Source: Treponema sp. (lineage in GTDB: Bacteria; Spirochaetota; Spirochaetia; Treponematales; Breznakiellaceae). From it: a DNA stretch of 33,159 nucleotides. Where the stretch lies: the NCBI GenBank assembly GCA_031274285.1, contig JAISQJ010000124.1:1-33159 (forward strand), read 5' to 3'. Within the stretch, counting starts at the first letter, position 1, and every line of letters begins with the position of its first letter. Below the pieces are notes generated by a model, which was given only the letters and a program-made list of their open reading frames with translations, ran no database searches and had not been told where the DNA came from. The translations under genes and the position numbers were made by a program. Shown in pieces: positions 12,487 through 28,793 of the stretch.

Positions 12487-13575
12487 ATGAAAAAGCTACT
12501 GCTCATGGTCATTGTTTTAGTAAACAGCATCTCCTTAAATGCGGAAGATGCCGGTAAAATTGTCGCCTTAGAGATAACTGGCATCCCGAATCAGTATGAT
12601 GGTAAATATGGAATGGCCCAAATCTATCTTGATGGCGGTGAGCGCCCAAGGGTGAACCACAGAATCTTTGGAACCATGTTTTCCGGAGAACTTAAATTTA
12701 CTGATGGCACGGCCTGGACAGCAGACATGGTTGAAAAAAATGTCAGGTATCAAGTGATATTAGTTATTGTTGACAGACAGGACGACAGCGCCTCTATTAC
12801 CAAATATTCCAGGCGGTTCTTAATTGACTCCGATGTTGTTTCCCTGAACTTTGATCTGGATTTTTTTGATTCTCCCTATGAGGCGTTGCAGCGGTATTCG
12901 CCGTTACGAAGCAAATTGCCGGAGGAAAAATTATGGGCATTAGCATTAACAGGTTTTCTGACAACAGCAAACCATGACCAGCACGATCTGCTGGGATTCA
13001 ATGATATAAACGAATCCAACAAGACAAACTATTCAAATCTCTTGAAAAGAGACTGGGGTATTAATAACAGGGACGAACTATTGGCGACGATTCAAAATAC
13101 AGAAACTAATGGCCATGCGGGCAGACTAAGACAGATAAAACAAATTATACAAGAAACGATAGATGGGCGGGGAAGCTTTTCAATAATCGCCGTAAATAAT
13201 AAATACCATCTTGATTCCCGTAATTACAACTATTTAAAATTCGTAGTATTAAATTGGGACCGGTTCAATAACAGAAGCATACAGGCATGGGATTTAGGCA
13301 GGGTGATTGCACTCTGCAGATGGGGCTATAGCGCAGGATTCTTGACCGAAGAAGAAGCTTGGGAAAAGATAATGTATTACGCACGAAAGATACAACCGCT
13401 GTACGAGTCCTGGGAAGAATACGGATATGATTATTATATGGGCCGTATTTTTTGGGCATCCGGATTTGGCGACGATGTTAATTATTTGCATCAAACTGAC
13501 AAATTATACAAAGATTTAACAGGGGAGCAGGGATACTGGAGAAATTTTATATGGAACCAAAATTTGGGGGAGTGA
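12487..13575 (+). CDS. exported DUF1266-domain protein
   Basis: A signal peptide (MKKLLLMVIVLVNSISLNA, residues 1-19) precedes a beta-rich segment and then a DUF1266-like C-terminal half. The recognisable pattern is a Trp-Asp-x-GR-x2-ALCRWGY motif (AWDLGRVIALCRWGYSAGFL), EEAWEKIMYYARKI, YESWEEYGYDYYMGRIFWAS, then a final Gly/Trp-rich stretch. The function of DUF1266 is unknown; here it is predicted to act outside the cytoplasm. Base composition is clearly more AT-rich than in the flanking xseA and 13605 genes, suggesting a different origin. It has its own promoter (12439). The next gene starts 29 bases after its stop. Confidence 0.75.
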   Translation: MKKLLLMVIVLVNSISLNAEDAGKIVALEITGIPNQYDGKYGMAQIYLDGGERPRVNHRIFGTMFSGELKFTDGTAWTADMVEKNVRYQVILVIVDRQDDSASITKYSRRFLIDSDVVSLNFDLDFFDSPYEALQRYSPLRSKLPEEKLWALALTGFLTTANHDQHDLLGFNDINESNKTNYSNLLKRDWGINNRDELLATIQNTETNGHAGRLRQIKQIIQETIDGRGSFSIIAVNNKYHLDSRNYNYLKFVVLNWDRFNNRSIQAWDLGRVIALCRWGYSAGFLTEEEAWEKIMYYARKIQPLYESWEEYGYDYYMGRIFWASGFGDDVNYLHQTDKLYKDLTGEQGYWRNFIWNQNLGE

Positions 13576-13604
13576 TTTGGGGGAGTGAGCACCCCCGGCC
13601 CGGG

Positions 13605-14429
13605 ATGAAGAAATCAAGCCTTTTCCTGTTTTTCTGCCTTGCCCTGCCCCGCTGTTTTTCCCAAGTTACCCTGGATAAGGGTCCGATGCTTGTTGGGGAA
13701 TCTGTCCGGGCTGCCGACCCCATGGTCTTGGTGGAGGGGGGAACTTTTCGGATGGGCAGTACCAATGGCGAAGCCTATGAAAGGCCGGTCCACACCGTAA
13801 AGCTGAACAGTTTCTATATGGGGAAGTATGAGGTGACCCAGGAGGAATGGATGGAACTCATGGACTTTAACCCCAGCAATTTTAAGGGCGATAACCTGCC
13901 GGTGGAAAACGTGCACTGGTTTGAGGCGGTGGAATACTGCAACAAACTCAGCCTAAAGGAGGGCCTAAACCCCGCCTACCGGGGCTCCGGCAGCGCCATT
14001 ACCTGTGATTTTAGCGCCTGCGGTTACCGGCTCCCCACGGAGGCCGAATGGGAGTACGCCGCCAAGGGGGGAAACCGGAATGCCAAGGCCTTTGAGTACG
14101 CCGGGGGGAACCGTGCGGATAGCGTGGCCTGGCATAACGGGAACAGCGGAAGCCGGACCCGCCCCGTGGGGACCAAAGAGCCCAACAGCTTAGGGCTTTA
14201 CGACATGAGCGGGAACGTTTTTGAGTGGTGCTGGGACCGGTATGGGCCCTATAGTTCCGATACCCAGGTAAATCCCCAAGGCCCTTCGGACCCCGCTTTG
14301 GATGGGTACCGCGTTATACGCGGCGGGAGCTATGACCTTGACGCCCGGTATGTCCGTACCGCCTACCGGGACTACGGCAGCCCCTCCAGCCGGAACCTCT
14401 ACCAGGGCTTCCGACTCGTCAGACCCTAA
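13605..14429 (+). CDS. exported SUMF1/FGE-fold protein without the catalytic cysteines
   Basis: The frame is open from 13551, but the ATG at 13605 gives a clean signal peptide (KKSSLFLFFCLALPRCFS) and avoids overlap with the upstream gene, so I chose it (274 residues). The SUMF1 fold is clear: MVLVEGGTFRMGS, FYMGKYEVTQEEW, LPVENVHWFEAVEYCN, YRLPTEAEWEYAAKGG, GLYDMSGNVFEWCWDRYG, YRVIRGGSY and GFRLVRP. In true formylglycine-generating enzymes two cysteines follow the GGSY motif. Here that stretch reads DLDARYVRTAYR, so sulfatase activation is unlikely. Treponemes carry many such paralogues. The base composition is GC-rich like the core genome, unlike its neighbours. Confidence 0.85.
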   Translation: MKKSSLFLFFCLALPRCFSQVTLDKGPMLVGESVRAADPMVLVEGGTFRMGSTNGEAYERPVHTVKLNSFYMGKYEVTQEEWMELMDFNPSNFKGDNLPVENVHWFEAVEYCNKLSLKEGLNPAYRGSGSAITCDFSACGYRLPTEAEWEYAAKGGNRNAKAFEYAGGNRADSVAWHNGNSGSRTRPVGTKEPNSLGLYDMSGNVFEWCWDRYGPYSSDTQVNPQGPSDPALDGYRVIRGGSYDLDARYVRTAYRDYGSPSSRNLYQGFRLVRP

Positions 14430-14447
14430 GGAGTTTGTTGCGCTTCG
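14429..14447 (-). repeat. copy of the interspersed repeat (19-base core)
   Basis: This stretch is the exact reverse complement of 1241-1259. It begins in the stop codon of the SUMF1-fold gene, paralleling the copy at 1155, which includes the stop codon of the universal-stress gene. The following ~100 bases to 14546 continue in frame for a few codons but contain nothing recognisable. Confidence 0.6.
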
Positions 14448-14546
14448 GGCTGTGATGTATGCGGCCGAAAGGTCATCAAGAGAGACCATCTTAAAGCCGT
14501 TGCGTGCGAAAAAGCTCTGTCCCTGATGGTATTTCCGTCAGCTTCA

Positions 14547-15368
14547 TTAATCCTTTGTCCACTTCCCATCGTTAAATACATACGTCCCCTTCTGTCTTCC
14601 GTTACCGCTGTAACAATCATAAAATAATTCATCCACCGGATCTCCATAGAATTCCAACTCAACATTTTCGCCTATGGTAACGGTTGTTATTTTGCTGCCC
14701 CGTGATGACAATCCTCCCGCAACCAAAACAACGGAATCGGGAATAACAAGGCTGGTCAAATAGTTATCCATATAAATATTCGTATACAATTCTTTAAGGG
14801 AGCCGGGAAGAACAATGCTTCTCAACTCATTATCCATAAAAGCGCCTGAGTCGATAGTATGTACACTGTCGGGAATTACTATTTCCGTTAATTGATTGGA
14901 CGCAAACGCCAACTGCCCTATTTTTTCCAGTTTTGCGGGAAGCGTAACGGCGGTCAGTTTATTACTCTGAAATGAGATAGTATCAATTACGGTTAGATTA
15001 TCGGGAAAAACAACGCTCTCGAGCATGTTATTTGAAAAGGCGGCTACTATTTTTGTTACCGTACTTGGAACAGTTAAAGAAGTTAACTTGTTGCCGGTGA
15101 ATGAAAAAAAACCTATCGTTTCAAGCCCTTCCGGTAAAACAAGGCTGGTCAACCCCTTGTCATCAAATGCGAACTCACCGATCACCGTCACCGGAAGGCC
15201 GTCGATGGTTTGGGGAATGGTTATTTCAGAAGCGTTTCCCTTAAAACCGGTAATGGTCAGGCTTTTCCCGTCGGGGTTCATTTCCGTACCAAATGAGACC
15301 GTCTGGGCCTGAATAGTTACGGCGATCAACAGCGGCAATAAGGACGAAACAAACAGTTTCTTGTACAT
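14547..15368 (-). CDS. exported BspA/TpLRR-type leucine-rich repeat protein
   Basis: A signal peptide (MYKKLFVSSLLPLLIAVTIQAQ) leads into about eight 22-23-residue repeats of the LRR_5 type. Each follows the pattern L-T-S-L-x-(V/L/I)-P-x-x-(L/V)-x-x-I-x-x-x-A-F-x-x-N; examples are LTSLVLPEGLETIGFFSFTG and LTEIVIPDSVHTIDSGAFMD. The repeats run from about residue 45 to 245, followed by a short polar tail. Such proteins are surface or secreted binding proteins in treponemes and Bacteroidetes; the ligand is unknown. AAGGGGAG lies upstream of the ATG. The gene converges on the SUMF1-fold gene and lies 42 bases downstream of the toxin gene on the same strand. Confidence 0.85.
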   Translation of the reverse strand: MYKKLFVSSLLPLLIAVTIQAQTVSFGTEMNPDGKSLTITGFKGNASEITIPQTIDGLPVTVIGEFAFDDKGLTSLVLPEGLETIGFFSFTGNKLTSLTVPSTVTKIVAAFSNNMLESVVFPDNLTVIDTISFQSNKLTAVTLPAKLEKIGQLAFASNQLTEIVIPDSVHTIDSGAFMDNELRSIVLPGSLKELYTNIYMDNYLTSLVIPDSVVLVAGGLSSRGSKITTVTIGENVELEFYGDPVDELFYDCYSGNGRQKGTYVFNDGKWTKD

Positions 15369-17703: not shown

Positions 17704-19365
17704 ATGCGTGTCCTGGCGGTCCTTTACGGCGGCAATCTCCGGCCCGAAGCTTTCCAAGGAGTCTTTCCCGGGGGGAAGAGCGCGTTTGACCTGGCTCTGG
17801 AACGGGTACGCCTCTTTCCCGGCTGGCAAAAGACCGTGATCCTGGGGGGGGATTTTCCCGGTTTGGAGTTTCCCCCCCATACGGAACTGGTGCAGAGGCC
17901 CCGCTGGACCCGGCGTGACCTGCTGGAGGCGGTGTCCCGCCTTTCCCAGGGTTGGGATTTGAGCTGTTTTGCCTGGGCGGATTGTCCCTTTCTGGACCCG
18001 GAGCTGACGGGGGCCATGATGGTGCGGCATCTCCGCTACGGGGCGGAGTATTCCTACGCCGACGGCTGGCCCTACGGTTTTGCCCCGGAACTGCTGGCCC
18101 CCGGTACCGCGGGAATCCTTGCCAAGATTGAGGGGGACGGGGAACATCCGGTGGAGCGGGACAGCATTTTCGCGGTGATCCAAAAGGATATCAATAGTTT
18201 TGACATAGAGACCGAAATTTCGGCGGTGGACCTGCGATCCCACCGCCTGGCCCTCTGCGCGGATTCAAAGCGGAACCTCCTGCTCCTTACCCGGTTTTCC
18301 GCGGCCGCGGGAACCGGGGAGGGGATTCCCGGCGCCGGGGAGGCCGAGGGGATCATCGGTGAAAGGCCGGAGATTCTGAGGACTCTGCCGAACTTTTACC
18401 CTATCCAGGCCGCCCGGCCCTGTCCCCAGTCCTGCGCCTTCTGTCCCTATCCGGCCCTTGCGGGTCCCCCGGCGGCCTCCGCGGCCGGGGAGGAGTTCCT
18501 GGATCCCGGCAAATTCGAAGCCCTCCTTGACCGGATTACGGCTTTTTCCGGGGATGCGGTGATCGATCTTTCCCTTTGGGGGGAACTGGCCCTGCACCCC
18601 CGGCGGATGGAGCTTATCCGGGCGGTCCTGGAGCGGCCCCAACTGGCCCTGGTCATTGAAACCAGCGGCATAGGCTGGAAGGACTCCGATCTGGAGGAGG
18701 CCGCGGCCCTGGCCGCGGGGGCCAGGCCGGCCCTCCGCAATCCGCTGCCCCCCCTGTCCTGGATCGTGTCCCTGGATACGGCGGATGGCGGCCGCTACCG
18801 GGAGATCCGGGGGCCCGGCTTTGCCGAGGCCTCAGGCTGCGCCAGGAAGCTCCTGGCCCTCTTTCCCGCCGATGCCTATGTCCAGGCCGTAAGGACCAGC
18901 GGCGCGGAGGATGACATTGAAAAATTCTACCGCTCCTGGAAGGAGGCGGCCCCGGGGGGGAACAGCAATATTATCATCCAGAAATACGATGATTTTTGCG
19001 GGGTCCTGGAAAAAAAGCAGGCCTCCGATATAGCTCCCATTGAGCGGCAGTGCTGCTGGCATATCATGCGGGACCTGCCGGTGCTGCTGGACGGCACCGT
19101 TCCCCTCTGCCGGGAGGAGCTTTCCGCCCTAAGCGGGGGAGGCCGTGTGTTAGGGAATATCTATCAAGATTCGCTTGAGACTATCTGGTCGGCGGGGGAG
19201 AAGTATTATGCTGAACACTGTGTATGGCAGGCTAAGGCCGCAGGGAAAACCCGGTTTGCCGGGCAGCCCGGTATTGAGGAACAAGGCGGGAGTGATGGAG
19301 CAGAAGGTCCGGCCTATCCAGGGATCTGCGCGAAATGTGATGAATACTATACCTACAATTTTTAA
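17704..19365 (+). CDS. spiro-SPASM protein: nucleotidyltransferase-like domain fused to radical SAM/SPASM
   Basis: Residues ~1-200 look like a cytidylyltransferase-type domain: a short glycine loop after the first strand (VLYGGN), WADCPFLDPE, and EYSYADGWPYGFAPELL, which parallels DYAAYSGLPYGAGVESVA in the 20347 product. Radical SAM cysteines C240, C244 and C247 follow (CPQSCAFC, the CX3CX2C cluster site). A TIM-barrel-like core comes next (IDLSLWGELALHP, LVIETSG, IVSLDTADGGRYREI). The SPASM-type cysteines are C450/C451, C469, C506, C542 and C545, for auxiliary Fe-S clusters. I recall this as a spirochaete-restricted family of unknown substrate. It is first in a run of five tightly spaced genes and overlaps the next. 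The first domain lacks an obvious full NTP-binding signature, so it may only bind. Confidence 0.85.
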   Translation: MRVLAVLYGGNLRPEAFQGVFPGGKSAFDLALERVRLFPGWQKTVILGGDFPGLEFPPHTELVQRPRWTRRDLLEAVSRLSQGWDLSCFAWADCPFLDPELTGAMMVRHLRYGAEYSYADGWPYGFAPELLAPGTAGILAKIEGDGEHPVERDSIFAVIQKDINSFDIETEISAVDLRSHRLALCADSKRNLLLLTRFSAAAGTGEGIPGAGEAEGIIGERPEILRTLPNFYPIQAARPCPQSCAFCPYPALAGPPAASAAGEEFLDPGKFEALLDRITAFSGDAVIDLSLWGELALHPRRMELIRAVLERPQLALVIETSGIGWKDSDLEEAAALAAGARPALRNPLPPLSWIVSLDTADGGRYREIRGPGFAEASGCARKLLALFPADAYVQAVRTSGAEDDIEKFYRSWKEAAPGGNSNIIIQKYDDFCGVLEKKQASDIAPIERQCCWHIMRDLPVLLDGTVPLCREELSALSGGGRVLGNIYQDSLETIWSAGEKYYAEHCVWQAKAAGKTRFAGQPGIEEQGGSDGAEGPAYPGICAKCDEYYTYNF

Positions 19366-20347
19366 TGAGACCGCCGCTTCCTATACCGCGGTGGGGGGAA
19401 CCGAGCGGCTGGGTTCCACGGGGCTTTCCGCGGTACTGCTGAACCGCCGGGGTCTCTTTTTCCGGCGCAGCCTCTTCCAAGAGCTGGAGAAAGCGGGGTT
19501 TGACTACGTTATTTCCATGGAGAGCGCCCCGGATCGCTACGACATTGAGGACCTTTCCGGCCGTTTCCCCTTTGTGCGCTTTGTCCTGATCCCCGAGGGG
19601 CTTAACGCCGGGGAACAGATCAACCTGGGCGCCGGCGAATCACCCAGTCCCCTTTTCTTCGTGCTTTGGAACGATCTTAAGATCATCACCGGCGGCGGTG
19701 CGGAGCGGATGGCGGAACGGCTCAGCCTTTCCCCGGAGGAATTGAAAAAGGCCCCGGCCTCCCAATTCCGGCGGCTCTGCACGGTCCCCTGGCTCCTCAA
19801 CGGTCGTTTTGAAACCCATCCCACCCTCATCGCCCCGGCGGTGTACCGGAGGAATGTGAGAACCCTGGTCTTTGCCCCCCGGCGGGAAGGGTTCCCCAGC
19901 CTCTACCCCTTTGACGGAGTGGGGATCTACGACCGGGAGCGGTTTATCAACCTGGGGGGCTTCGATTCCCGGATACGCAACCCCTACTGGCAGCTCATGG
20001 ATTTCGGCTTCCGGGCCTGCCTTTGGGGGGAGGAGATTGGCGTCACCCAGCATATCAAGCTCTGCAGCGAGGGGATGATCCCCGTGGAAGACAACACCGT
20101 TGACGAGGGGTACCGCCGGTTTTACCTGAAGAATATCGCCCCCGTCTTCCGGGGGGACCATGCGCACCTGCCCTGGCGGCGTTTTCCCGGCTACCTGGCC
20201 AACTCCGGCTGGGATATTTTTGGCGCGTGGGAGGAATTTAACGAGGCCCGCCGCTGGGTTCATACCAACCGTAAGCGGTGGAAAAGCGATGCCCGGATGG
20301 TAAACGAACGCTGGGAGGATGTGGGCGCCCCCCCGGAGGAAACTTAG
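19340..20347 (+). CDS. GT2-like glycosyltransferase family protein
   Basis: The frame is open from 19175, but the first ~50 codons are out-of-frame overlap with the upstream gene. ATG at 19340 (MNTIPTIFNETAASYTAVGG) gives a 335-residue protein; 19295 is an alternative start. Features consistent with a GT-A fold are VLWNDLKI (DxD-like), FDGVGIYDRERFINLGGFDS (the acceptor-side motif common in GT2 enzymes) and WQLMDFGFRACLWGEEIGVT (ED/DFG-type base region). No membrane segment is visible, so it probably acts in the cytoplasm. It is overlapped by the neighbours on both sides, indicating translational coupling. Likely role: transfer of a sugar made or activated by the next gene products. The acceptor is unknown. 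Confidence 0.65.
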   Translation: MNTIPTIFNETAASYTAVGGTERLGSTGLSAVLLNRRGLFFRRSLFQELEKAGFDYVISMESAPDRYDIEDLSGRFPFVRFVLIPEGLNAGEQINLGAGESPSPLFFVLWNDLKIITGGGAERMAERLSLSPEELKKAPASQFRRLCTVPWLLNGRFETHPTLIAPAVYRRNVRTLVFAPRREGFPSLYPFDGVGIYDRERFINLGGFDSRIRNPYWQLMDFGFRACLWGEEIGVTQHIKLCSEGMIPVEDNTVDEGYRRFYLKNIAPVFRGDHAHLPWRRFPGYLANSGWDIFGAWEEFNEARRWVHTNRKRWKSDARMVNERWEDVGAPPEET

Positions 20348-21099
20348 TGGCCGGCCCTACGGCGGTGGTACTCCAGGCCCGGCTGGACTCCTCCCGGCTG
20401 CCGGGCAAGGCCCTGCTCCCCCTGGGGGGACGGCCCCTCCTCTACCGGGTCATGGAGGCCCTGCGCCGTATTCCCGCGGACCGGTACATTCTGGCCTCCC
20501 CGGAGGACTGCGGGCGGCCCTTTGGTCCCCTGGCGGAGGAGGCGGGTTTCCAATTCTGCCCCGGCCCCAAGGACGATGTGCTGGGCCGCTACTGCCTGGT
20601 TATCCGCCGCTACGCCCTGGGCCGGGTGATCCGGGCCACCGGGGATAATCCCTTCGTGTTTCCCGACGCGGCCGCGGCCATAAACGGCGAGGCCCTGGAC
20701 GCCGATTATGCGGCCTATAGCGGTCTTCCCTACGGCGCGGGGGTGGAGTCTGTGGCTGCGGAAGCCCTGCTCCGGGCGGACCGGGACTGCCCCCCCGGCG
20801 CGGCCGGAACCATGCCCCCGGAACGGGAGCATGTCTGTCCCTACCTCTACAGTCACCCGGAGCTTTTCCTCCTCCACCGCCCCCTGGCGCCCCCGGCCTG
20901 GCGGGGGCCCTCCCTGCGGCTCACCGTGGATACCCCCGAAGATTATGAACGCTGCCTGGCCCTTTGGGAGGCCCTGCAAGCGGAGGCCCCAGGCGATCCC
21001 GCGGAAGGGACCCCTGTGACCCCGGACAGCGGGACCCTCATCGCCGTTTACCGCCGCCTGGCCGGGGCCGGGGCGCCCCTGTTTCGGGAGCCCCGGTGA
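20347..21099 (+). CDS. SpsF-like cytidylyltransferase
   Basis: The protein begins at GTG 20347, whose G is also the last base of the preceding TAG; GGAGGA lies 6 bases upstream, which decides the start over the longer frame from 20278. The N-terminal signature VVLQARLDSSRLPGKALLPL is the nucleotide-binding loop of CMP-sugar/SpsF-type transferases. It is followed by GRPLLYRVMEALRR, DDVLGRYCLVIRRY, IRATGDNPFVFPD and LTVDTPEDYERCLAL, all family hallmarks. At 250 residues it is of normal size. It should activate a sugar acid or related compound as its CMP derivative for the glycosyltransferases beside it. The next gene overlaps by GTGA. Confidence 0.85.
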   Translation: MAGPTAVVLQARLDSSRLPGKALLPLGGRPLLYRVMEALRRIPADRYILASPEDCGRPFGPLAEEAGFQFCPGPKDDVLGRYCLVIRRYALGRVIRATGDNPFVFPDAAAAINGEALDADYAAYSGLPYGAGVESVAAEALLRADRDCPPGAAGTMPPEREHVCPYLYSHPELFLLHRPLAPPAWRGPSLRLTVDTPEDYERCLALWEALQAEAPGDPAEGTPVTPDSGTLIAVYRRLAGAGAPLFREPR

Positions 21100-23099
21100 A
21101 GGCGGTCCCGGTGGAAGTCTCCGTAGCGGGGGCCGCCCTGGGGGAAATCCCCGCGGTAAAAGCCAGCCAAACTACGGCCGCGGGCCCGATTCTGGTCGTT
21201 CCCTGCGTGGAGGCCGGCAGGGGAGGGGGCCACCTGGCCCGCTGCGCGGCCCTGGTCCGGGATCTCGGGACCCTGGGCCGGGACGCCCGGCTCTACCTTG
21301 CCTCCACCGGGACGGCGGCCTTCAAGACCCTGGCCCCCCTGCTGAAGGGTCTTGCCGCGGCGGGGCCCGGGGACATCCGGGATACGGCCTGGGCATTCAT
21401 CGTGCTGGACCGTTTCCAAACCCCCGGCCGGGAGTACCGTTTCTGGTCCTCCCTGGCCCCCCTCATCGGCATTGACGAGGGCGGCCCCTGCCGGGACCGT
21501 TTCGATTTCCTCATCGATCTGCTCCCCGGTCCGCCGGGCCGGTCCCTCCCCAACTTCCTGGACCCCGGCCTGCTCCCTCTGCCTGTCAGGCGCCGGCCCC
21601 CAAGCGCTGCACGGACGGACCAAACGCTCCCCCCCAGGGTCCTCATCAGCTTCGGCGCCGAGGATAGTGCGGGCCTGGGGCCCCGCTGCGCCGCGGCCCT
21701 GGCCGCGTTGAAGCCTACCCTCATCAGCCCCCGGGCCCCGTCTCTGGAGGGGGTCACGGTGCTGCCGGCCCTGCCGGCCCTGGGGGAACATCTGGCCGAA
21801 TACGATCTCCTGCTTACCCACTTCGGCCTTACCGCCTTTGAGGCCCTGGGGGCCGGTGTCCCGGTGCTCCTCCTTTCCCCCAGTTCCTACCACCGGCGCC
21901 TGGCCGGGGCCGCGGGTTTCATCTCCGCCGGTTCCGGGGGCCGGGGGGTCCGGCGGCTTAGGCGACTCCTTATTGGGACGGTAAAGCCCGGCAAAGCGCC
22001 GGCCCGGCGGGGGCCGGCCGGATCGGGGAGTTTTTCCGGGGAAACGGCTTTTCTTGATACCCTGGGGGAGCACTGCCGCTCCCTGGCCCGCCGTTACGGT
22101 CTGGACCAAAAGGCCGGGCCCTCGCTGGCCTCTTACCTTGTGGCCCTTCAACCGGAGTTTCAAAGCCGCCGCTGTCCCCTCTGCGGGGACGGGCCTTATG
22201 GGGGCGGGCCCTCCCAGGACCATCCCGTGCTGGCCCGCTTCCCCAACCGGATTTTCCGCCGCTGTCCCCGCTGCGGCCTTTGGTACATGAGCCGCACCGA
22301 CCGGCCCCCCGTCGAATACGCCGGGGAGTATTTCTTTGAGTCCTACCGGAAACAGTACGGCAAGACCTACCTGGAAGATTTCCCCAACCTCATGGCCATG
22401 GGGGAAAAGCGGCTTTCCCGCATAGTCCCCCTGGTCCCCGCGGTTCCGGGAAAGGCCAAGCTCCTGGACATAGGCTGCGCCTACGGCCCCTTCCTCAAGG
22501 CCGCTTCCCACGCAGGCTTCGAGGTCCTCGGCCTGGACCCGGCGGAAGAGGCGGCGGCCTATGTCCGGGACACCCTCAAGCTGCCCGCGGTCCGGGGTCT
22601 TTTCCCCCCCCCTAAAGACGGGGCTCCGGGGGAAGATGCCGGAATGTATGCCCCCGGAACCTATTCCGTCGGAATGTATTCCGTCATCACCCTGTGGTAT
22701 GTGATCGAACACATGAGGAACCCCGGAGAAGCCCTGGCGGAGGCCCGGCGGCTCCTTATGGACGGGGGGGTCCTGGCCTTTTCCACCCCCTCCTTTGCGG
22801 GAATTTCAGGCAAAAAATCCCCCGCCGCCTTTCTGGAAAAGAGCCCCCAGGATCACTGGACCATCTGGGCCCCCCGGATCTGCGGGAGGATCCTGAGGCG
22901 CCAGGGCTTCGCGTTGAAAAAAATCGTAGTCTCAGGCCACCACCCCGAGCGTTTTCCCCTGGCAGGAAAGCTTTGCGCCGCAAAACGGGGTCCGGTCTAC
23001 CAGTTTTTGCTGCTCCTAAGCCGAATTTTCGGCCTGGGGGATACCTTCGAAGTCTATGCGGTAAAAATTCCGCAAAAACCCGGTAAGGAACGAACATGA
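21096..23099 (+). CDS. fusion of PseG-like GT-B domain and SAM methyltransferase
   Basis: GTG at 21096 overlaps the previous stop as GTGA with CGGGAG 5 bases upstream, giving 667 residues. Residues ~30-300 resemble PseG, the UDP-sugar hydrolase of pseudaminic acid synthesis. They include GRGGGHLARCAALV, with the histidine at residue 46 in the catalytic-His position, RVLISFGAEDSAGLG, and HFGLTAFEALGAGVPVLLL. Residues 360-393 hold four cysteines in two CxxC pairs (CPLC, CPRC), a probable zinc knuckle. Residues ~450-620 are a class I methyltransferase with LLDIGCAYGPF, FEVLGLDP and WYVIEHMRNPGEAL. A short GMY/TYSV repeat interrupts the domain near 517-530. The substrate is unknown, but the fusion implies release or transfer and methylation of the same glycan intermediate. 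Confidence 0.75.
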   Translation: MKAVPVEVSVAGAALGEIPAVKASQTTAAGPILVVPCVEAGRGGGHLARCAALVRDLGTLGRDARLYLASTGTAAFKTLAPLLKGLAAAGPGDIRDTAWAFIVLDRFQTPGREYRFWSSLAPLIGIDEGGPCRDRFDFLIDLLPGPPGRSLPNFLDPGLLPLPVRRRPPSAARTDQTLPPRVLISFGAEDSAGLGPRCAAALAALKPTLISPRAPSLEGVTVLPALPALGEHLAEYDLLLTHFGLTAFEALGAGVPVLLLSPSSYHRRLAGAAGFISAGSGGRGVRRLRRLLIGTVKPGKAPARRGPAGSGSFSGETAFLDTLGEHCRSLARRYGLDQKAGPSLASYLVALQPEFQSRRCPLCGDGPYGGGPSQDHPVLARFPNRIFRRCPRCGLWYMSRTDRPPVEYAGEYFFESYRKQYGKTYLEDFPNLMAMGEKRLSRIVPLVPAVPGKAKLLDIGCAYGPFLKAASHAGFEVLGLDPAEEAAAYVRDTLKLPAVRGLFPPPKDGAPGEDAGMYAPGTYSVGMYSVITLWYVIEHMRNPGEALAEARRLLMDGGVLAFSTPSFAGISGKKSPAAFLEKSPQDHWTIWAPRICGRILRRQGFALKKIVVSGHHPERFPLAGKLCAAKRGPVYQFLLLLSRIFGLGDTFEVYAVKIPQKPGKERT

Positions 23100-24646
23100 A
23101 AGAGCGGATCATTATCTTAGGGGCCGGCGTCATGCAGGGGCCGGTCATCGGCATAGCAAAGGAAATGGGGCTTTACACCGTGGTGGTGGATGCGGATGAC
23201 CAGGCCGTCAACGTGCCCATGGCGGATCGCTTTGAACGGATCGATCTTAAGGACAAGGAGGGCATCGAAGCCCTGGGCCGTTCCCTCCTTGACCGCGGCG
23301 GCCTTGGGGGGATCATGACCGCGGGGACGGATTTTTCCGCCTCCGTGGCCTGGGTAGCGGAACGGCTGGGCCTGCCGGGGATCCCCTACGAGGCCGCCCT
23401 GAACGCGTCGGACAAGGGGCGGATGCGCGGCTGCTTTGCAAGGGCCGGGATTCCTTCCCCGGCTTACCGGGTGCTCTCCGGCCCCGCCGAATCCCCGGAG
23501 GGCCTTTCCCTGCCGGCGGTGGTGAAACCCGTGGACAACATGGGGAGCCGGGGCTGCCGCCGGGTGGATTCCCCCACGGAAATGGCGGCGGCCCTGGGCG
23601 AGGCCCTGGGCTTTTCCCGTTCCCGCCGGGCCATCGTGGAAGATTTTATCGAAGGGCCGGAATTTTCGGTGGACGCCATTGTCTACGATGAGGAGATAAC
23701 TATCTGCGGCCTGGCTGACCGGCATATCTTCTTCCCCCCCTATTTCATCGAGATGGGCCACACCATGCCCAGCAATTTCCCCCAGGGGGACCAGGACGCC
23801 ATGCTGGAGACCTTTAAGGCCGCGGTCCGGGCCCTGGGAATCGCCGGGAAGGGCCGCCGGGGGGCCGCCAAGGGGGATGTAAAACTCAGCCCCAGGGGCC
23901 CCATGATCGGGGAAGTGGCGGCCCGGCTCTCCGGGGGCTACATGTCCGGCTGGACCTACCCCTATGCCTCCGGGGTCCGGCCCATCCGGGGGGCTATCCA
24001 GGCGGCCCTGGGCCGCCGGCCGGACGAACTGGTTCCCAGCCGTTCCTGGACCTGCGCCGAACGGGCCTTTATCTCCATCCCCGGTCGGGTGCGCTCCATT
24101 CAGGGTCTGGAGAAGGCCCGGGCCCCGGAAGGCGTGCGGGACCTCTTCCTCCGGGCGGAAACGGGGAAGGATGTACATTTTCCGGAAAACAACGTTTCCA
24201 AGTGCGGGAACATCATCGCCAGCGCGCCCGGCCGGGACGAGGCGGTCCGCCTGGCGGAGACTGCGGCCCGGTCCGTCCTCATCCGCCTGGAAGTCCGTAA
24301 CCCGGCCACCGATGCCTTCCTGGCTGCGGAAACGGCCTTTCCCCCCAGCGCCTTTACCCTGGGGCCGGAACTCCGGGCCGCCCTGGCCCTGCTCCCCGAT
24401 CCCCCCCTCCGGTCCGGGGACCCCCTGGGTATTGTTCCCTTCCCCGAATTCACCGCCTCCGCCCTCCGGGACTATGCGGGCCGGGGGGTCGAAGAATCCC
24501 TGGATGCGGTCAGGGAGCTTTGCGGCCTGGCCCTGCCCCTGGGGCCGTCCCTGCTGGGAAGAAGCTTTTGGTCCGCCTTTATCCGGGGCGGCTATCAGGG
24601 AGCGGTTTATTTTATCGATAATCTAAGGGCGGAATTCAGGGAGTAA
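23096..24646 (+). CDS. ATP-grasp ligase-like protein
   Basis: The 516-residue protein overlaps the methyltransferase gene by ATGA. A Rossmann-like N-terminus (IIILGAGVMQGPVIGIAKEM) leads to the ATP-grasp core: DKGRMRGCFARAGIPSPAYR, LPAVVKPVDNMGSRGCRRVD, AIVEDFIEGPEFSVDAIVYD and VKLSPRGPMIGEVAARLSGG. This family uses ATP to join a carboxylate to an amine or other nucleophile via an acyl-phosphate. In place of the usual E-x-N-x-R the last motif reads GEVAARLSGG. The ~200-residue C-terminal extension has no recognised domain. In this setting it most likely adds an amino acid or other amide to the sugar made by the neighbouring enzymes. It is the last gene of the run. Confidence 0.8.
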   Translation: MKERIIILGAGVMQGPVIGIAKEMGLYTVVVDADDQAVNVPMADRFERIDLKDKEGIEALGRSLLDRGGLGGIMTAGTDFSASVAWVAERLGLPGIPYEAALNASDKGRMRGCFARAGIPSPAYRVLSGPAESPEGLSLPAVVKPVDNMGSRGCRRVDSPTEMAAALGEALGFSRSRRAIVEDFIEGPEFSVDAIVYDEEITICGLADRHIFFPPYFIEMGHTMPSNFPQGDQDAMLETFKAAVRALGIAGKGRRGAAKGDVKLSPRGPMIGEVAARLSGGYMSGWTYPYASGVRPIRGAIQAALGRRPDELVPSRSWTCAERAFISIPGRVRSIQGLEKARAPEGVRDLFLRAETGKDVHFPENNVSKCGNIIASAPGRDEAVRLAETAARSVLIRLEVRNPATDAFLAAETAFPPSAFTLGPELRAALALLPDPPLRSGDPLGIVPFPEFTASALRDYAGRGVEESLDAVRELCGLALPLGPSLLGRSFWSAFIRGGYQGAVYFIDNLRAEFRE

Positions 24647-24652
24647 TGGTAC

Positions 24653-25762
24653 GTGCTTAGTGTAAAGTCAAAAACAGCCCTTACTCTTCTTCTCTTCTGG
24701 GGGGCCCTCGCTCTCATGGGCGCGGAAAACCTGGGAAATTCCGGCCCCTTCACCCTGGACGATACCCTGGCCCTCCTGGGGAGGCGGAATGAAGCCGCCC
24801 GGAGCCTGCCGGCGGAATTCCGCTGGGACCCCTTCTTCAGCGCCGGGGTCTTCAGCACCGCGGCCCACAACCTGTCTTTCCGGGCCGGGGAGCCGGGGGA
24901 ACAGGGCTTTTTCCTCCTGGACGGCAAGGACCTGTACCCGGTCCAGGCCCCCTACCTGTCCCAGGGCCTGCTGTATTTTCCGGAGGACTTTGTTACCCTG
25001 GCGGAAAAGGTCCTCTTTCCCCAGCCGGAAAGGGCCCCCGCGGCGGAGGCCGGGTCCTTTAGGATTGCGGCGATCATCGTGGACCCCGGTCACGGGGGCA
25101 AGGACCCCGGCGCCATCGGCAGATTCACCGGGAACGGACATTCCTGGTCCCTAATCGAAAAGGACATAACCCTCAAGGTATCCAGGGAGGTCCACGCCCT
25201 CCTCAGCCGGACCTACCCCGGCAAGCGGATACTCCTTACCAGGGATCGGGATGTGTTCCCCAGCCTGGCGGAACGGGTGGAACTGGCCAACTCGGTTTCC
25301 CTGCCGGAAAACGAGGCGGTGATCTTCATTTCGATTCACGCCAATTCCTCCTTCAACAAGAACGCTCGGGGCTTCGAGGTTTGGTACCTGGACCCCAATT
25401 ACCGCCGGGAACTCATCGACAAATCGAAATACGGGGAATCCGCGGCCATTGTAAACAGCATGATGGAAGAGGAATTTACCACCGAAAGCATCATGATGGG
25501 CCAGAATATCCTCAACCGCATGGGTCAGGCCGTGGGGAATGCGACTCCCAGCCGGGGGCTCAAGGCGGAAAAATGGTTCGTGGTAAGGAATGCCCAGATG
25601 CCCGCGGTCCTGGTTGAACTGCCCTTTGTCACCAACGAGCGGGATGCGGCGATCATGGCCGATGACGCTTACTTGAAGCTATTCGCCGATGCGATCTATA
25701 AGGGGATTGTGGATTTTGTAGGGGCCTTTGAGCGGACCGGAGGGTTTACCGCCATCCAATGA
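24653..25762 (+). CDS. N-acetylmuramoyl-L-alanine amidase (Amidase_3)
   Basis: This periplasmic zinc amidase cleaves the bond between MurNAc and the peptide stem. A signal sequence (TALTLLLFWGALALMGAEN) precedes a ~110-residue N-terminal domain of unknown role and the catalytic domain from ~138. Zinc and catalytic residues are H147 (DPGHGGKDPG), E169 (LIEKDI), H229 (SIHANSS) and E322 (LVELPFVTN). The start is GTG at 24653 with AGGGAG 9 bases upstream. It overlaps the GerMN gene by ATGA. The order amidase - GerMN - flaA, as I recall it from T. pallidum TP0247-TP0249, suggests a conserved envelope/flagellum function such as opening the wall for periplasmic flagella. Confidence 0.93.
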   Translation: MLSVKSKTALTLLLFWGALALMGAENLGNSGPFTLDDTLALLGRRNEAARSLPAEFRWDPFFSAGVFSTAAHNLSFRAGEPGEQGFFLLDGKDLYPVQAPYLSQGLLYFPEDFVTLAEKVLFPQPERAPAAEAGSFRIAAIIVDPGHGGKDPGAIGRFTGNGHSWSLIEKDITLKVSREVHALLSRTYPGKRILLTRDRDVFPSLAERVELANSVSLPENEAVIFISIHANSSFNKNARGFEVWYLDPNYRRELIDKSKYGESAAIVNSMMEEEFTTESIMMGQNILNRMGQAVGNATPSRGLKAEKWFVVRNAQMPAVLVELPFVTNERDAAIMADDAYLKLFADAIYKGIVDFVGAFERTGGFTAIQ

Positions 25763-26289
25763 GCCTGAAAAACAGCCTTTTTTTTATACTCCGCTTCTTT
25801 AAGGCAAAGGGCAGACGCCGTTTGACCTTTCTTATCCTGATCGGCCTCTTTGCCCTGGGGGATTTTCTGCTTATGGGGCTTGTACGGCGCACTTTTGTCT
25901 TTTATTTTGTGTCGGATCGGTCGATAATTGTTGAAGATCGAATGCTTCGGCGTTCGGAGAGCCGGGAAAGCGACATAACCCGGTATGTGGAGGAATTCCT
26001 CCTGGGGCCCGGATCTCCGGATCTTGCCCCCCTCTTTCCCAGGGAGACACGGCTGCGGAGCCTGTTGTACCGGGACGGCGTGGTTTATGCGGACCTTTCC
26101 GAATCTGCGGCATTGCCCTTTTCGGAGCAGGGGCCCGGGGACCTTGGCCAGGGGCTTGCCGGGAGTTTTGAGACCCTGTACCGGGGAATCAGGCGGAATT
26201 TTCCCTATGTCCGGGATGTCAGGCTTTTTGTCGCCGGGAACGCTGCCTTTTCGGGGGAGTTTGGGGAAAAGGAAGCCCCGGGGCCGTAA
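25759..26289 (+). CDS. membrane-anchored GerMN-domain protein
   Basis: The 176-residue protein has a basic N-terminus and one membrane segment (residues ~22-42, FLILIGLFALGDFLLMGLV). It then has a GerMN-type domain with YVEEFLLGPGSPDLAPLFPR, LRSLLYRDGVVYADLS and, at the end, LYRGIRRNFPYVRDVRLFVA. GerMN domains are found beside amidases in sporulators and non-sporulators and are thought to bind wall components. ATGA overlap with the amidase implies a functional pair. A short spacer with a strong promoter separates it from flaA. Confidence 0.8.
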   Translation: MSLKNSLFFILRFFKAKGRRRLTFLILIGLFALGDFLLMGLVRRTFVFYFVSDRSIIVEDRMLRRSESRESDITRYVEEFLLGPGSPDLAPLFPRETRLRSLLYRDGVVYADLSESAALPFSEQGPGDLGQGLAGSFETLYRGIRRNFPYVRDVRLFVAGNAAFSGEFGEKEAPGP

Positions 26290-26397: not shown

Positions 26398-27456
26398 ATG
26401 AAACGGATGTTCATTCTTGTTGCCGTTGTGTTGTTTCTGACGGGTTCCCTCTTTGCGGATGAGGCGATTTTGATTGACTTCTCCGTGCTGGGAGCGGATA
26501 TCCTGGCTAACCAGGATGGTGAGCCAACGCAGAATAGCCGTACCCTTATGGATTTCCGAAACGTTGCCGGTCAGGGTTACACCCCGGATCAGTACGCGGT
26601 GATGAAAACATCACTTGCCCTCCCAAACTGGGAGGTAAGCCTGTCCTCATCTTCCCGGACGGTGGAGAATATCGGTAACAGTTATGTCCGGTCCTCCGCA
26701 TCCCAGCAGTGGGGCAGTGTCATGGGTGTCCGGATCCACTACCCGCTGGGGCCCAACTATTCCAAGGCATGGATTCGGCCTCCCTTTGAGATTCCCGCCT
26801 TTGAACCCCAGGCCAATATCGATGAAGACGGGAACATTGAACCGGCGGACGGGGACGGCATTACAGGCCCCAGCCGTTTTGAGGCTCCCACCGGCGATGA
26901 CGGCAGGATCGATCCCACCCAGCCCGCCTATGGGGTTGTGAAGAACGTGGGAACCATCAAATCGGTCGAAGTTAACGCCTACGGCCTTAATTTCCCCCAC
27001 GGCCTGTCCATTATCCTTATCGACAGCCAGGGAAACGAAAAAACCTATTTCATGGGCTACCTGAACTATGAAGGCTGGAAACCCCTGCGCTGGAACAATC
27101 CCCAGTACATTTCCGAGGTACGGAACCGGGAACTGCGGATCTATCCCCTCTATCCCTTCTCAACACCCTTTGTAAAGTTCGGCGGTTTCATTCTCCACCG
27201 GGATGCCGACGCTATCGGCGGTGATTTTATCAGCTACTTCAAGGATGTAAAGCTCATCTACGACCGCGCCGTAGCCGATCCCGACAGGGATATTAACGAT
27301 GAGGCCATTTGGCACATCATTTACGACCGGGAGACGCAGAAAAAGACCTATGAGATGGAACGGTTCGGCAAGAATCAGGTTCTCCGGTACCTGGAGGAGC
27401 AGAAGCGGGCCAAGGAAGATGCGTTTACTCCTACGCCTACCCCGGACAGTAATTAA
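26398..27456 (+). CDS. flaA: flagellar filament outer-layer (sheath) protein FlaA
   Basis: FlaA coats the FlaB core of the periplasmic flagellum in spirochaetes. A signal peptide (MKRMFILVAVVLFLTGSLFA) precedes a mature start DEAILIDFSVLGADI. Family signatures include NSRTLMDFRNVAGQGYTPDQ, MGVRIHYPLGPNYSKAWIRP, KSVEVNAYGLNFPHGLSIIL, MGYLNYEGWKPLRWNNPQYI, RIYPLYPFSTPFVKFGGF and ISYFKDVKLIYDRAV. The 352-residue length matches the ~37-kDa class. The C-terminus is a charged tail ending TPTPTPDSN. It is monocistronic, with its own promoter (26308) and a strong terminator (27491). The glycan-type gene cluster lies just upstream, with the amidase and GerMN genes in between. Confidence 0.95.
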   Translation: MKRMFILVAVVLFLTGSLFADEAILIDFSVLGADILANQDGEPTQNSRTLMDFRNVAGQGYTPDQYAVMKTSLALPNWEVSLSSSSRTVENIGNSYVRSSASQQWGSVMGVRIHYPLGPNYSKAWIRPPFEIPAFEPQANIDEDGNIEPADGDGITGPSRFEAPTGDDGRIDPTQPAYGVVKNVGTIKSVEVNAYGLNFPHGLSIILIDSQGNEKTYFMGYLNYEGWKPLRWNNPQYISEVRNRELRIYPLYPFSTPFVKFGGFILHRDADAIGGDFISYFKDVKLIYDRAVADPDRDINDEAIWHIIYDRETQKKTYEMERFGKNQVLRYLEEQKRAKEDAFTPTPTPDSN

Positions 27457-27521: not shown

Positions 27522-27542
27522 CGGCTGATCTTGTGGTATCGT

Positions 27543-28793
27543 ATGAAAGTAGATTTACCGCCGCCGAGCCGGAAGGTTCTGCGGGACGAATATGAAAAAT
27601 ACAAAGAACTCCGGACCTTAGTTATCCGTGATCTGGAATCCTATCTGGAATCGAAGTTTTCCCATCTTGGCTCGCGGCTCCTGGCAAAGGGCCGGCTTAA
27701 GGATTTTGCCAGCTTCTATAAAAAACACCTTGGAATTCTTAAATCAAAGGCCGGCCGGTCAAAAGATTTCGACTATCCGCCGGTAATTACCGACCTCATC
27801 GGTATTAGGGTGGTGTGCCCCTTTCTGGAAGACATGAAGGAGGCGGAGAAGATCATCAAGGATGATTTTGAGGTGGTGGAAATAGAACGCAAGGGGGCGG
27901 GCTATTCCTTTAAGGAGTTCGGCTACGAGTCCACCCATTTTCTGGTGATCATCCCCCGGCATATTTTAGCGGCCCGCGGGGATTGCCTCTGCCAAATCGC
28001 GGAAATTCAGGTCCGTACCATCCTCCAGGATGCCTGGGCGGAAGTGGAACACGAACTGGTCTACAAAGCGGAATTTACCCCCTTCGATGAACCCATGAAA
28101 CGGAAACTGGCGGCGGTGAATGCCAGCCTTTCCCTGGCGGATACCATTTTTCAGGAGATCCGCGCCTACCAGCGCCAGCTTAACGGGGAATTGGGAAAAC
28201 GGAGGGATTCGTTTTATAGAATTATTGAAGAATCCACCGACGCCCTGCTTTTGCCGGAGCAGGAAGATGTAAAAATAAGGGACTCCGGGGTCCAGGATAC
28301 CCAGCGTCCTATTTCAGGCGGCACCGTGGACGATATGCTCCTTAACGCCCTCTATGCCCATAACAAGAACCGCTTTGACGAGGCCATTACCTTCTATAGC
28401 CGTATTCTGGAAATGAAAATAGACGATGCAATCCGATCCCTTATCCACAAGCACCGGGGCATGGCCTACTTTGCCCAATCCATGTACCAGGATGCCATTG
28501 ATGATTTTTCCAGCTCCCTCGAGTGGGATAAAAAATCTTATAAGGCCGCCTATTACCGGGGGGTGGTCCGGGCGGTTATGCGAAGCTATGCCCAGGCGGT
28601 GGAAGATTTTTCCCTTTCCCTTTCCCTTAATCCTTATCAGGCTTTTTGCCTTTTCAGGAGGGGACAGGCCTATTACCATATCGGAGATTATCCGGCGGCC
28701 CTGGCGGACTGCGAAGCTTCGCTGGATTTAGAGCCGGAAAATGAAGCGGTGCACAAATTTCGGAAAATAATACGAAATAAATTAAAAATGTAA
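27543..28793 (+). CDS. small alarmone synthetase-type RelA/SpoT protein with C-terminal TPRs
   Basis: The frame is open from a TTG at 27531; ATG at 27543 (MKVDLPPPSRKVLR) is preferred, although the ribosome binding site is poor. Residues ~40-200 form a RelA_SpoT synthetase domain: SRLLAKGRLKDFASFYKK, VITDLIGIRVVCPF, FGYESTHFLVIIP and IAEIQVRTILQDAWAEVEHE. No hydrolase (HD) domain, TGS or ACT domain is present, so it should only make (p)ppGpp or a related nucleotide. Residues ~265-410 contain about four TPR units (NALYAHNKNRFDEAITFYSR, SSLEWDKKSYKAAYYRGVVR, SLSLNPYQAFCLFRRGQAYY), a protein-binding platform unusual for small alarmone synthetases. It begins 22 bases after the flaA terminator. 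Confidence 0.88.
   Translation: MKVDLPPPSRKVLRDEYEKYKELRTLVIRDLESYLESKFSHLGSRLLAKGRLKDFASFYKKHLGILKSKAGRSKDFDYPPVITDLIGIRVVCPFLEDMKEAEKIIKDDFEVVEIERKGAGYSFKEFGYESTHFLVIIPRHILAARGDCLCQIAEIQVRTILQDAWAEVEHELVYKAEFTPFDEPMKRKLAAVNASLSLADTIFQEIRAYQRQLNGELGKRRDSFYRIIEESTDALLLPEQEDVKIRDSGVQDTQRPISGGTVDDMLLNALYAHNKNRFDEAITFYSRILEMKIDDAIRSLIHKHRGMAYFAQSMYQDAIDDFSSSLEWDKKSYKAAYYRGVVRAVMRSYAQAVEDFSLSLSLNPYQAFCLFRRGQAYYHIGDYPAALADCEASLDLEPENEAVHKFRKIIRNKLKM

Follow-up and report, generated by a model that had tools for sequence, protein, structure and literature searches.

A spirochaete gene set that includes the spiro-SPASM protein is predicted to tailor and activate a nonulosonate of flagellin

A 33,159-nt stretch of Treponema sp. 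DNA (the window) carries five open reading frames (ORFs) on the + strand between positions 17704 and 24646, which we refer to as genes A to E and which lie upstream of genes for an amidase, a GerMN-domain protein and the sheath protein FlaA (Table 1). An earlier sequence-only reading had seen in these five genes a single pathway that makes and decorates an unusual activated sugar, with a radical S-adenosylmethionine (SAM) step as its novel chemistry. By computation we determined gene content, gene order, fusion of C and D, co-occurrence, folds, motif losses and the residues at FlaB glycosylation sites. Our results indicate that A, C, D and E probably form the tailoring and activation module of a nonulosonate that is O-linked to Ser/Thr of FlaB in spirochaetes, that B belongs to another unit, and that the radical-SAM motif of A is absent from about half of the lineages.

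All five ORFs called earlier are present, with overlaps that we correct to 26 (A/B), 1 (B/C), 4 (C/D) and 4 (D/E) nt, the starts of B, C and D having been shifted on the basis of conservation among relatives and of the DNA itself. The corrected start of B falls inside the codons of the invariant CDEYYTYNF end of A, and B starts within the end of A in 67 of the 79 close relatives that were readable at this locus. The loci closest to the window are those of termite-gut Treponema or Breznakiellaceae. The order A-B-C-D-E-amidase-GerMN-FlaA recurs in 13 families of the window's class (f1, f3–f5, f8, f9, f11, f14 and f17–f21), so the arrangement is not due to chance. In Treponemataceae, C and D form one ORF of ∼830–880 amino acids (aa) that begins with the C domain, and this fusion ties the two in function. 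Two genomes that we take to be T. pallidum (G056, 1.14 Mb) and T. denticola (G165), with reference sizes of 1,139,633 and 2,843,201 bp, keep A-B-CD together and carry E elsewhere. From our reading of genome features we likewise take f6 to be Borrelia-like, f12 Sphaerochaeta-like, f25 Leptospira-like and f29 Brachyspira-like. Outside the window's class A, C and D remain adjacent: D consists of the PseG-like half only in G042 and G007, and the order flaA-amidase-D-C-A is retained in G003. In G246, A-C-D-E stand together with B missing. Of the expectation that the genes are kept together in relatives, the recurrent order is borne out, but B separates from A, C, D and E.

Table 1. Genes of the cluster and its conserved downstream neighbours in the window
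Feature	Coordinates	Strand	Description
Gene A	17704..19365	+	spiro-SPASM protein TIGR04321, 553 aa
Gene B	19340..20347	+	GT-A fold protein; start corrected to ATG 19340
Gene C	20347..21099	+	SpsF/NeuA-type cytidylyltransferase, predicted CMP-nonulosonate synthetase; start corrected to GTG 20347
Gene D	21096..23099	+	putative PseG-like UDP-sugar hydrolase half, cysteine-rich linker and SAM methyltransferase; start corrected to GTG 21096
Gene E	23096..24646	+	ATP-grasp ligase, L-amino-acid-ligase type; ATG 23096; predicted 4-amino sugar acylation replacing PseH
N-acetylmuramoyl-L-alanine amidase	24653..25762	+	conserved downstream neighbour
GerMN-domain protein	25759..26289	+	conserved downstream neighbour
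FlaA flagellar sheath protein	26398..27456	+	conserved downstream neighbour

The model of gene A's family, TIGR04321, scores above its cut-off in 291 of 393 Spirochaetota genomes. For 80 spirochaete genomes we tabulated co-occurrence, taking E < 1e-40 as a strong NeuB match and PF01973 as Maf, and found flagellin in 66, strong NeuB in 63, Maf in 61, E in 60 and A in 59. Every one of the 59 A-positive genomes also encodes flagellin, E, strong NeuB and two to five copies of Maf, and A and E agree in presence or absence in 79/80 genomes. Of the A-negative genomes, 21 in all, 19 lack Maf; the 21 comprise 14 without flagellin (A and E being absent from all 14), five Borrelia-like genomes with flagellin and without A, E, NeuB and Maf, and two drafts (G321 and G317) that lack A and have Maf, NeuB and flagellin. 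Fisher p-values for these counts take no account of how the genomes are related and are descriptive. The A, C, D and E set is kept by nearly all flagellated spirochaetes and is missing from the Lyme-disease group. Together with the FlaB site residues described below, this co-occurrence with NeuB, Maf and flagellin supports the earlier proposal of an activated, decorated nonulosonate-type sugar with a flagellar target. The T. denticola-like genome contains A, B, the C-D fusion, E, NeuB and Maf, and the T. pallidum-like genome contains A, B, the C-D fusion, E, one NeuB, four Maf and a PseB-PseC pair; four PF01973 (Maf-type) matches are strikingly many in a genome of such reduced size. As a side observation, a DnaJ-domain protein and a conserved ∼650–680 aa protein lie beside NeuB in the T. 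denticola- and T. pallidum-like genomes (L104:10660-13031 and L105:10732-13178), and the T. denticola-like copy of the latter matches no Pfam or NCBIfam model.

The domain readings first given for C, D and E stand. C matches PF02348 at 78 bits (cut-off 22.6) and has the invariant residues Q33, R35, S38, R40, K44, D123 and D218; the conserved loop and Asp are present, consistent with a predicted synthetase of cytidine monophosphate (CMP)-nonulosonate. D joins a weakly matching PseG-like half, in which the GxGHxxR motif is kept, to a Methyltransf_23 domain. E contains ATP-grasp (41.3 bits) and LAL_C2 (62.7 bits) domains, both above their cut-offs, and matches 3vot (E 2e-38). Outside the window's class E is mostly 720–809 aa long, and all three proteins scanned add a dehydrogenase domain dependent on flavin mononucleotide (FMN), of the alpha-hydroxy acid type, in Leptospira-like, Brachyspira-like and f27 genomes (L158:8419-10674, L160:8176-10377 and L166:7738-10017); a redox step on the acyl precursor is a possible role for it. 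A profile search for PseH in 55 genomes gave a match above the cut-off in one and no match at all in 20, including the T. pallidum-like genome and that of the window. From this rarity of PseH we propose that E is the natural predicted candidate to acylate the 4-amino group (later N7 of the nonulosonate), possibly replacing PseH. A PseC-like aminotransferase gene and a long PseB-like dehydratase gene are adjacent, for example, in both of these genomes (C1:84815 and 85965 in the former, C173:11518 and 12678 in the latter).

From these elements we infer each catalytic assignment and the order of the steps as follows. PseB-like and PseC-like enzymes encoded elsewhere would produce a 4-amino sugar linked to uridine diphosphate (UDP), and E, standing in for the acetyltransferase PseH, would couple an unusual carboxylic acid to its amine. 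UDP would then be removed by the PseG-like half of D, a NeuB-type synthase encoded elsewhere would carry out the condensation with phosphoenolpyruvate, C would make the CMP-sugar, and cytoplasmic transfer of its nonulosonate to FlaB would fall to Maf proteins. The O-methyl on the acyl group would come from the methyltransferase half of D. The probable role of A is to hold the nucleotide sugar or to act as a partner of C; with an intact radical-SAM motif CX3CX2C, as in the window, it would add an oxidative tailoring step.

A product that would fit this scheme is already known. The FlaB glycan of T. denticola is reportedly Pse5Ac with an N7-(2-methoxy-4,5,6-trihydroxyhexanoyl) group, a structure for which we compute a mass of 450.185 Da. 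It calls for one amide ligation and one O-methylation, steps that could be supplied by E and by the methyltransferase half of D. PMC9481697, citing Kurniyati 2017, gives 450.2 Da for this glycan, which is the likely product class. Leptospira FlaB retains VEVSQL and DRIAS, the motifs glycosylated in T. denticola, and B. burgdorferi has other residues at the two serines (PMC7431986). We compared 58 flagellins, 53 from pathway-positive and five from Borrelia-like genomes: the DRIAS serine is present in 51/53 of the former (3/3 in the window's genome) and is Asp in 5/5 of the latter, while the VEVSQL serine is present in 47/53 and is Glu in 5/5. As a single evolutionary event, this association between FlaB site residues and the pathway is suggestive only. 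Glycan density has been located at the core-sheath interface on L. biflexa FlaB1 (PMC13144727), and Maf is described in the literature as a Pse transferase.

B follows a different distribution. It had been called GT2-like; no Pfam or NCBIfam model matches it, but its AlphaFold model (predicted local distance difference test score, pLDDT, 89.6) does have a GT-A fold. The nearest folds are polypeptide GalNAc-transferases of family GT27 (Z 20.5 over 265 residues, the next group reaching 15.2), and a sequence search returned no GT27 match. B is present in 5/5 Borrelia-like genomes, in three aflagellate genomes (f9/g44) and, in diverged form, in 8/9 Sphaerochaeta-like genomes; outside the window's class we found no clear orthologue, with weak matches at best (E 1e-24 or worse). 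In the Borrelia-like genomes, which lack A, C, D and E, the remaining neighbours are B-amidase-(GerMN)-FlaA, in the aflagellate genomes B-amidase-GerMN stand together, and B lies beside the amidase in 2/3 Sphaerochaeta-like genomes read. This persistence of B beside the amidase where the other four genes are gone assigns it to another unit, probably outside the nonulosonate module. One could extend this pattern to the whole locus, which would then serve a glycan of the envelope or cell wall, linked to peptidoglycan or lipid, the amidase link being functional and the adjacency of flaA incidental; however, A and E are absent wherever flagellin is absent and travel with Maf and NeuB, so that the argument fits B only and is improbable for A, C, D and E. 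A role of B as the flagellin transferase, suggested by its GT27-like fold, was also considered and rejected as the main reading, because B is kept in genomes without flagellin or the sugar set and Maf follows the set exactly. Viewed separately, B beside the amidase and GerMN (L180:9232-12870, Borrelia-like; L183:7638-10102, aflagellate) is a conserved envelope unit that includes a GT27-like fold.

Gene A matches TIGR04321 at 513 bits (E 8e-154; cut-off 250), the NCBI family 'spiro-SPASM', whose record lists the function as unknown. It is laid out as an SpsF-like pseudo-cytidylyltransferase (∼1–220), a radical-SAM core (∼225–440) and a Twitch-type auxiliary domain with C451, C469, C542 and C545, and its structure model has a pLDDT of 90.2. 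In this model the N-terminal domain (residues 1–232) does have the nucleotidyltransferase fold expected of it (6oew, Z 21.6 across 220 residues), and residues 6–220 align with the whole of C (hhalign, probability 97.3), which relates the two. Activity is another matter: the triphosphate-loop residues kept in C (QxRxxSxRLPxK) are not conserved in A, and the first 90 alignment residues of the A domain hold no conserved column, against six invariant residues in C. Acidic positions that match the metal ligands of cytidylyltransferases are nevertheless kept in 65/85 and 80/85 A orthologues. The radical-SAM/Twitch unit (residues 225–553) has the partial TIM-barrel fold (Z 21.0 to BtrN, 22.8 to SuiB) and carries an intact CX3CX2C as CPQSCAFC, with a PF04055 score below the cut-off (18.1 versus 29.5 bits). 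The 'SPASM' label survives insofar as the Pfam SPASM model passes (23.8 versus 21.5 bits), but the seven-cysteine two-cluster motif is absent; the four conserved cysteines (CX17C...CX2C) are of the Twitch type found in BtrN (PMC9012708).

Across the 85 A orthologues aligned, all three cysteines of CX3CX2C are present in 45, while the motif is absent in 40, nearly all of which miss two or three of the cysteines and usually all three. The T. pallidum- and T. denticola-like genomes are among those without it. The four Twitch cysteines, by contrast, are conserved in 84/85. On the A tree (a quick tree with a midpoint root) the motif requires 13 parsimony changes, at least six of them on well-supported branches, and at matched Twitch identity (0.35–0.5) core conservation is 0.268 in the losers versus 0.311, with the N-domain equal. 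Oxygen as the cause of the losses was considered and rejected, as the Leptospira-like genomes, taken as aerobic, retain CX3CX2C. A motif missing from about half of the lineages means that the chemistry common to all of them cannot be the radical step, and that what A does in all of them must be different. The proposal that all five genes form one pathway with the radical-SAM reaction of A as its defining step could draw on the order conserved across much of the class and on CX3CX2C being intact in the window and in 77/79 readable loci of its family, but these losses, together with the finding that B and the other four genes each occur without the other, contradict it for the phylum as a whole and leave it very improbable. 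Radical chemistry instead appears to be kept by selection in some lineages and to be dispensable in others. Tentatively, in about half of the lineages A may be a former radical-SAM enzyme that discarded its SAM cluster and kept the Twitch [4Fe-4S] site and the nucleotide-sugar-binding-like domain, and that flagellin glycosylation still needs for a task other than radical chemistry, be it redox, as a scaffold or as a partner of C. A could also be a scaffold or sensor with an iron-sulphur cluster that couples the activation of the glycan to the export of flagellin, its nucleotidyltransferase-like and radical-SAM parts both being pseudo-enzymes, as the unconserved triphosphate loop, the repeated motif loss and the nearly invariant Twitch cysteines would allow; the motif's retention in the window's family, which suggests selection for catalysis there, and the mostly kept metal-ligand-like acidic positions make this doubtful, and it concerns A only, being compatible with the roles proposed for C, D and E.

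Several points weigh against assigning A, C, D and E to a FlaB nonulosonate. The PseG-like match of D is weak (to 3hbm, E 5e-4 with the full profile and 1.4e-3 for the half alone, with no NCBIfam PseG match), and acylation could be the work of GNAT proteins that have diverged beyond the reach of the PseH model. NeuB was looked for next to the cluster and not found there; its position is elsewhere in the genome, and its neighbours differ between lineages. Flagellated genomes without the pathway amount essentially to a single clade, the Borrelia-like, so few independent events stand behind the link to flagella and FlaB sites, and the role given to A is a guess.

FlaB glycosylation is essential for T. 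denticola flagella, and in Leptospira it seems to hold the core and the sheath together. The TIGR04321 family and the FlaB glycan were known separately; as far as the literature we searched shows (its coverage was partial), their link, the split of B, the substitution of E for PseH and the pattern of motif loss are new. Within that coverage we found no literature on spiro-SPASM, none joining radical SAM, SpsF and flagellin in Treponema, and no gene assignment for the tailoring steps of the T. denticola glycan. The set provides a small, testable group of genes for FlaB glycan tailoring, including in a minimal T. pallidum-like genome, with a proposed amide-ligase substitution for PseH and with Borrelia, which lacks the whole set, as a natural contrast. 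It also offers a rare case in which a SAM cluster was lost repeatedly while the auxiliary cluster site hardly changed. Elsewhere in the window, a RelA/SpoT-domain protein with TPR repeats (27531-28793) lies directly 3′ of flaA, a position kept in several families, and genes for a DUF1266 protein, an FGE-sulfatase-like protein and a BspA-type leucine-rich repeat protein (12487-15368) occupy the interval that separates the cluster from the exonuclease VII gene, outside the conserved neighbourhood of the cluster.

Comparison with known systems shows what is shared and what is particular to this locus. Relative to GT27 polypeptide GalNAc-transferases, B has 10–12% identity, no lectin domain and, in place of the GT27 sequence in the acidic motif region, PYWQxLDFGFR. 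The Leptospira borgpetersenii cytidylyltransferase 6oew is the best PDB match of both C (E 3e-44) and the N-domain of A (E 7e-6), although the latter lacks the conserved triphosphate loop. The best PDB sequence match of A as a whole is BtrN (4m7t, E 1.7e-16), the Twitch radical-SAM alcohol dehydrogenase of butirosin biosynthesis, which shares its fold over 232 residues and its single four-cysteine auxiliary cluster; A differs from BtrN by its additional nucleotidyltransferase-like domain and by the absence of the radical-SAM cysteines from many of its orthologues. Because A of the T. denticola-like genome has no CX3CX2C, the 450.2 Da FlaB glycan of T. denticola cannot depend on the radical chemistry of A. 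Closest overall is the CMP-pseudaminic acid pathway with Maf flagellin glycosylation of Campylobacter, Helicobacter and Aeromonas, which shares PseB- and PseC-like enzymes, a putative PseG-like hydrolase, a NeuB/PseI-type synthase, a cytidylyltransferase, Maf and a flagellin Ser/Thr target. In contrast to that pathway, most spirochaete genomes have no clear PseH and have an ATP-grasp ligase instead, Treponema fuses the C, PseG-like and methyltransferase domains, and a radical-SAM/Twitch protein is encoded at the locus.

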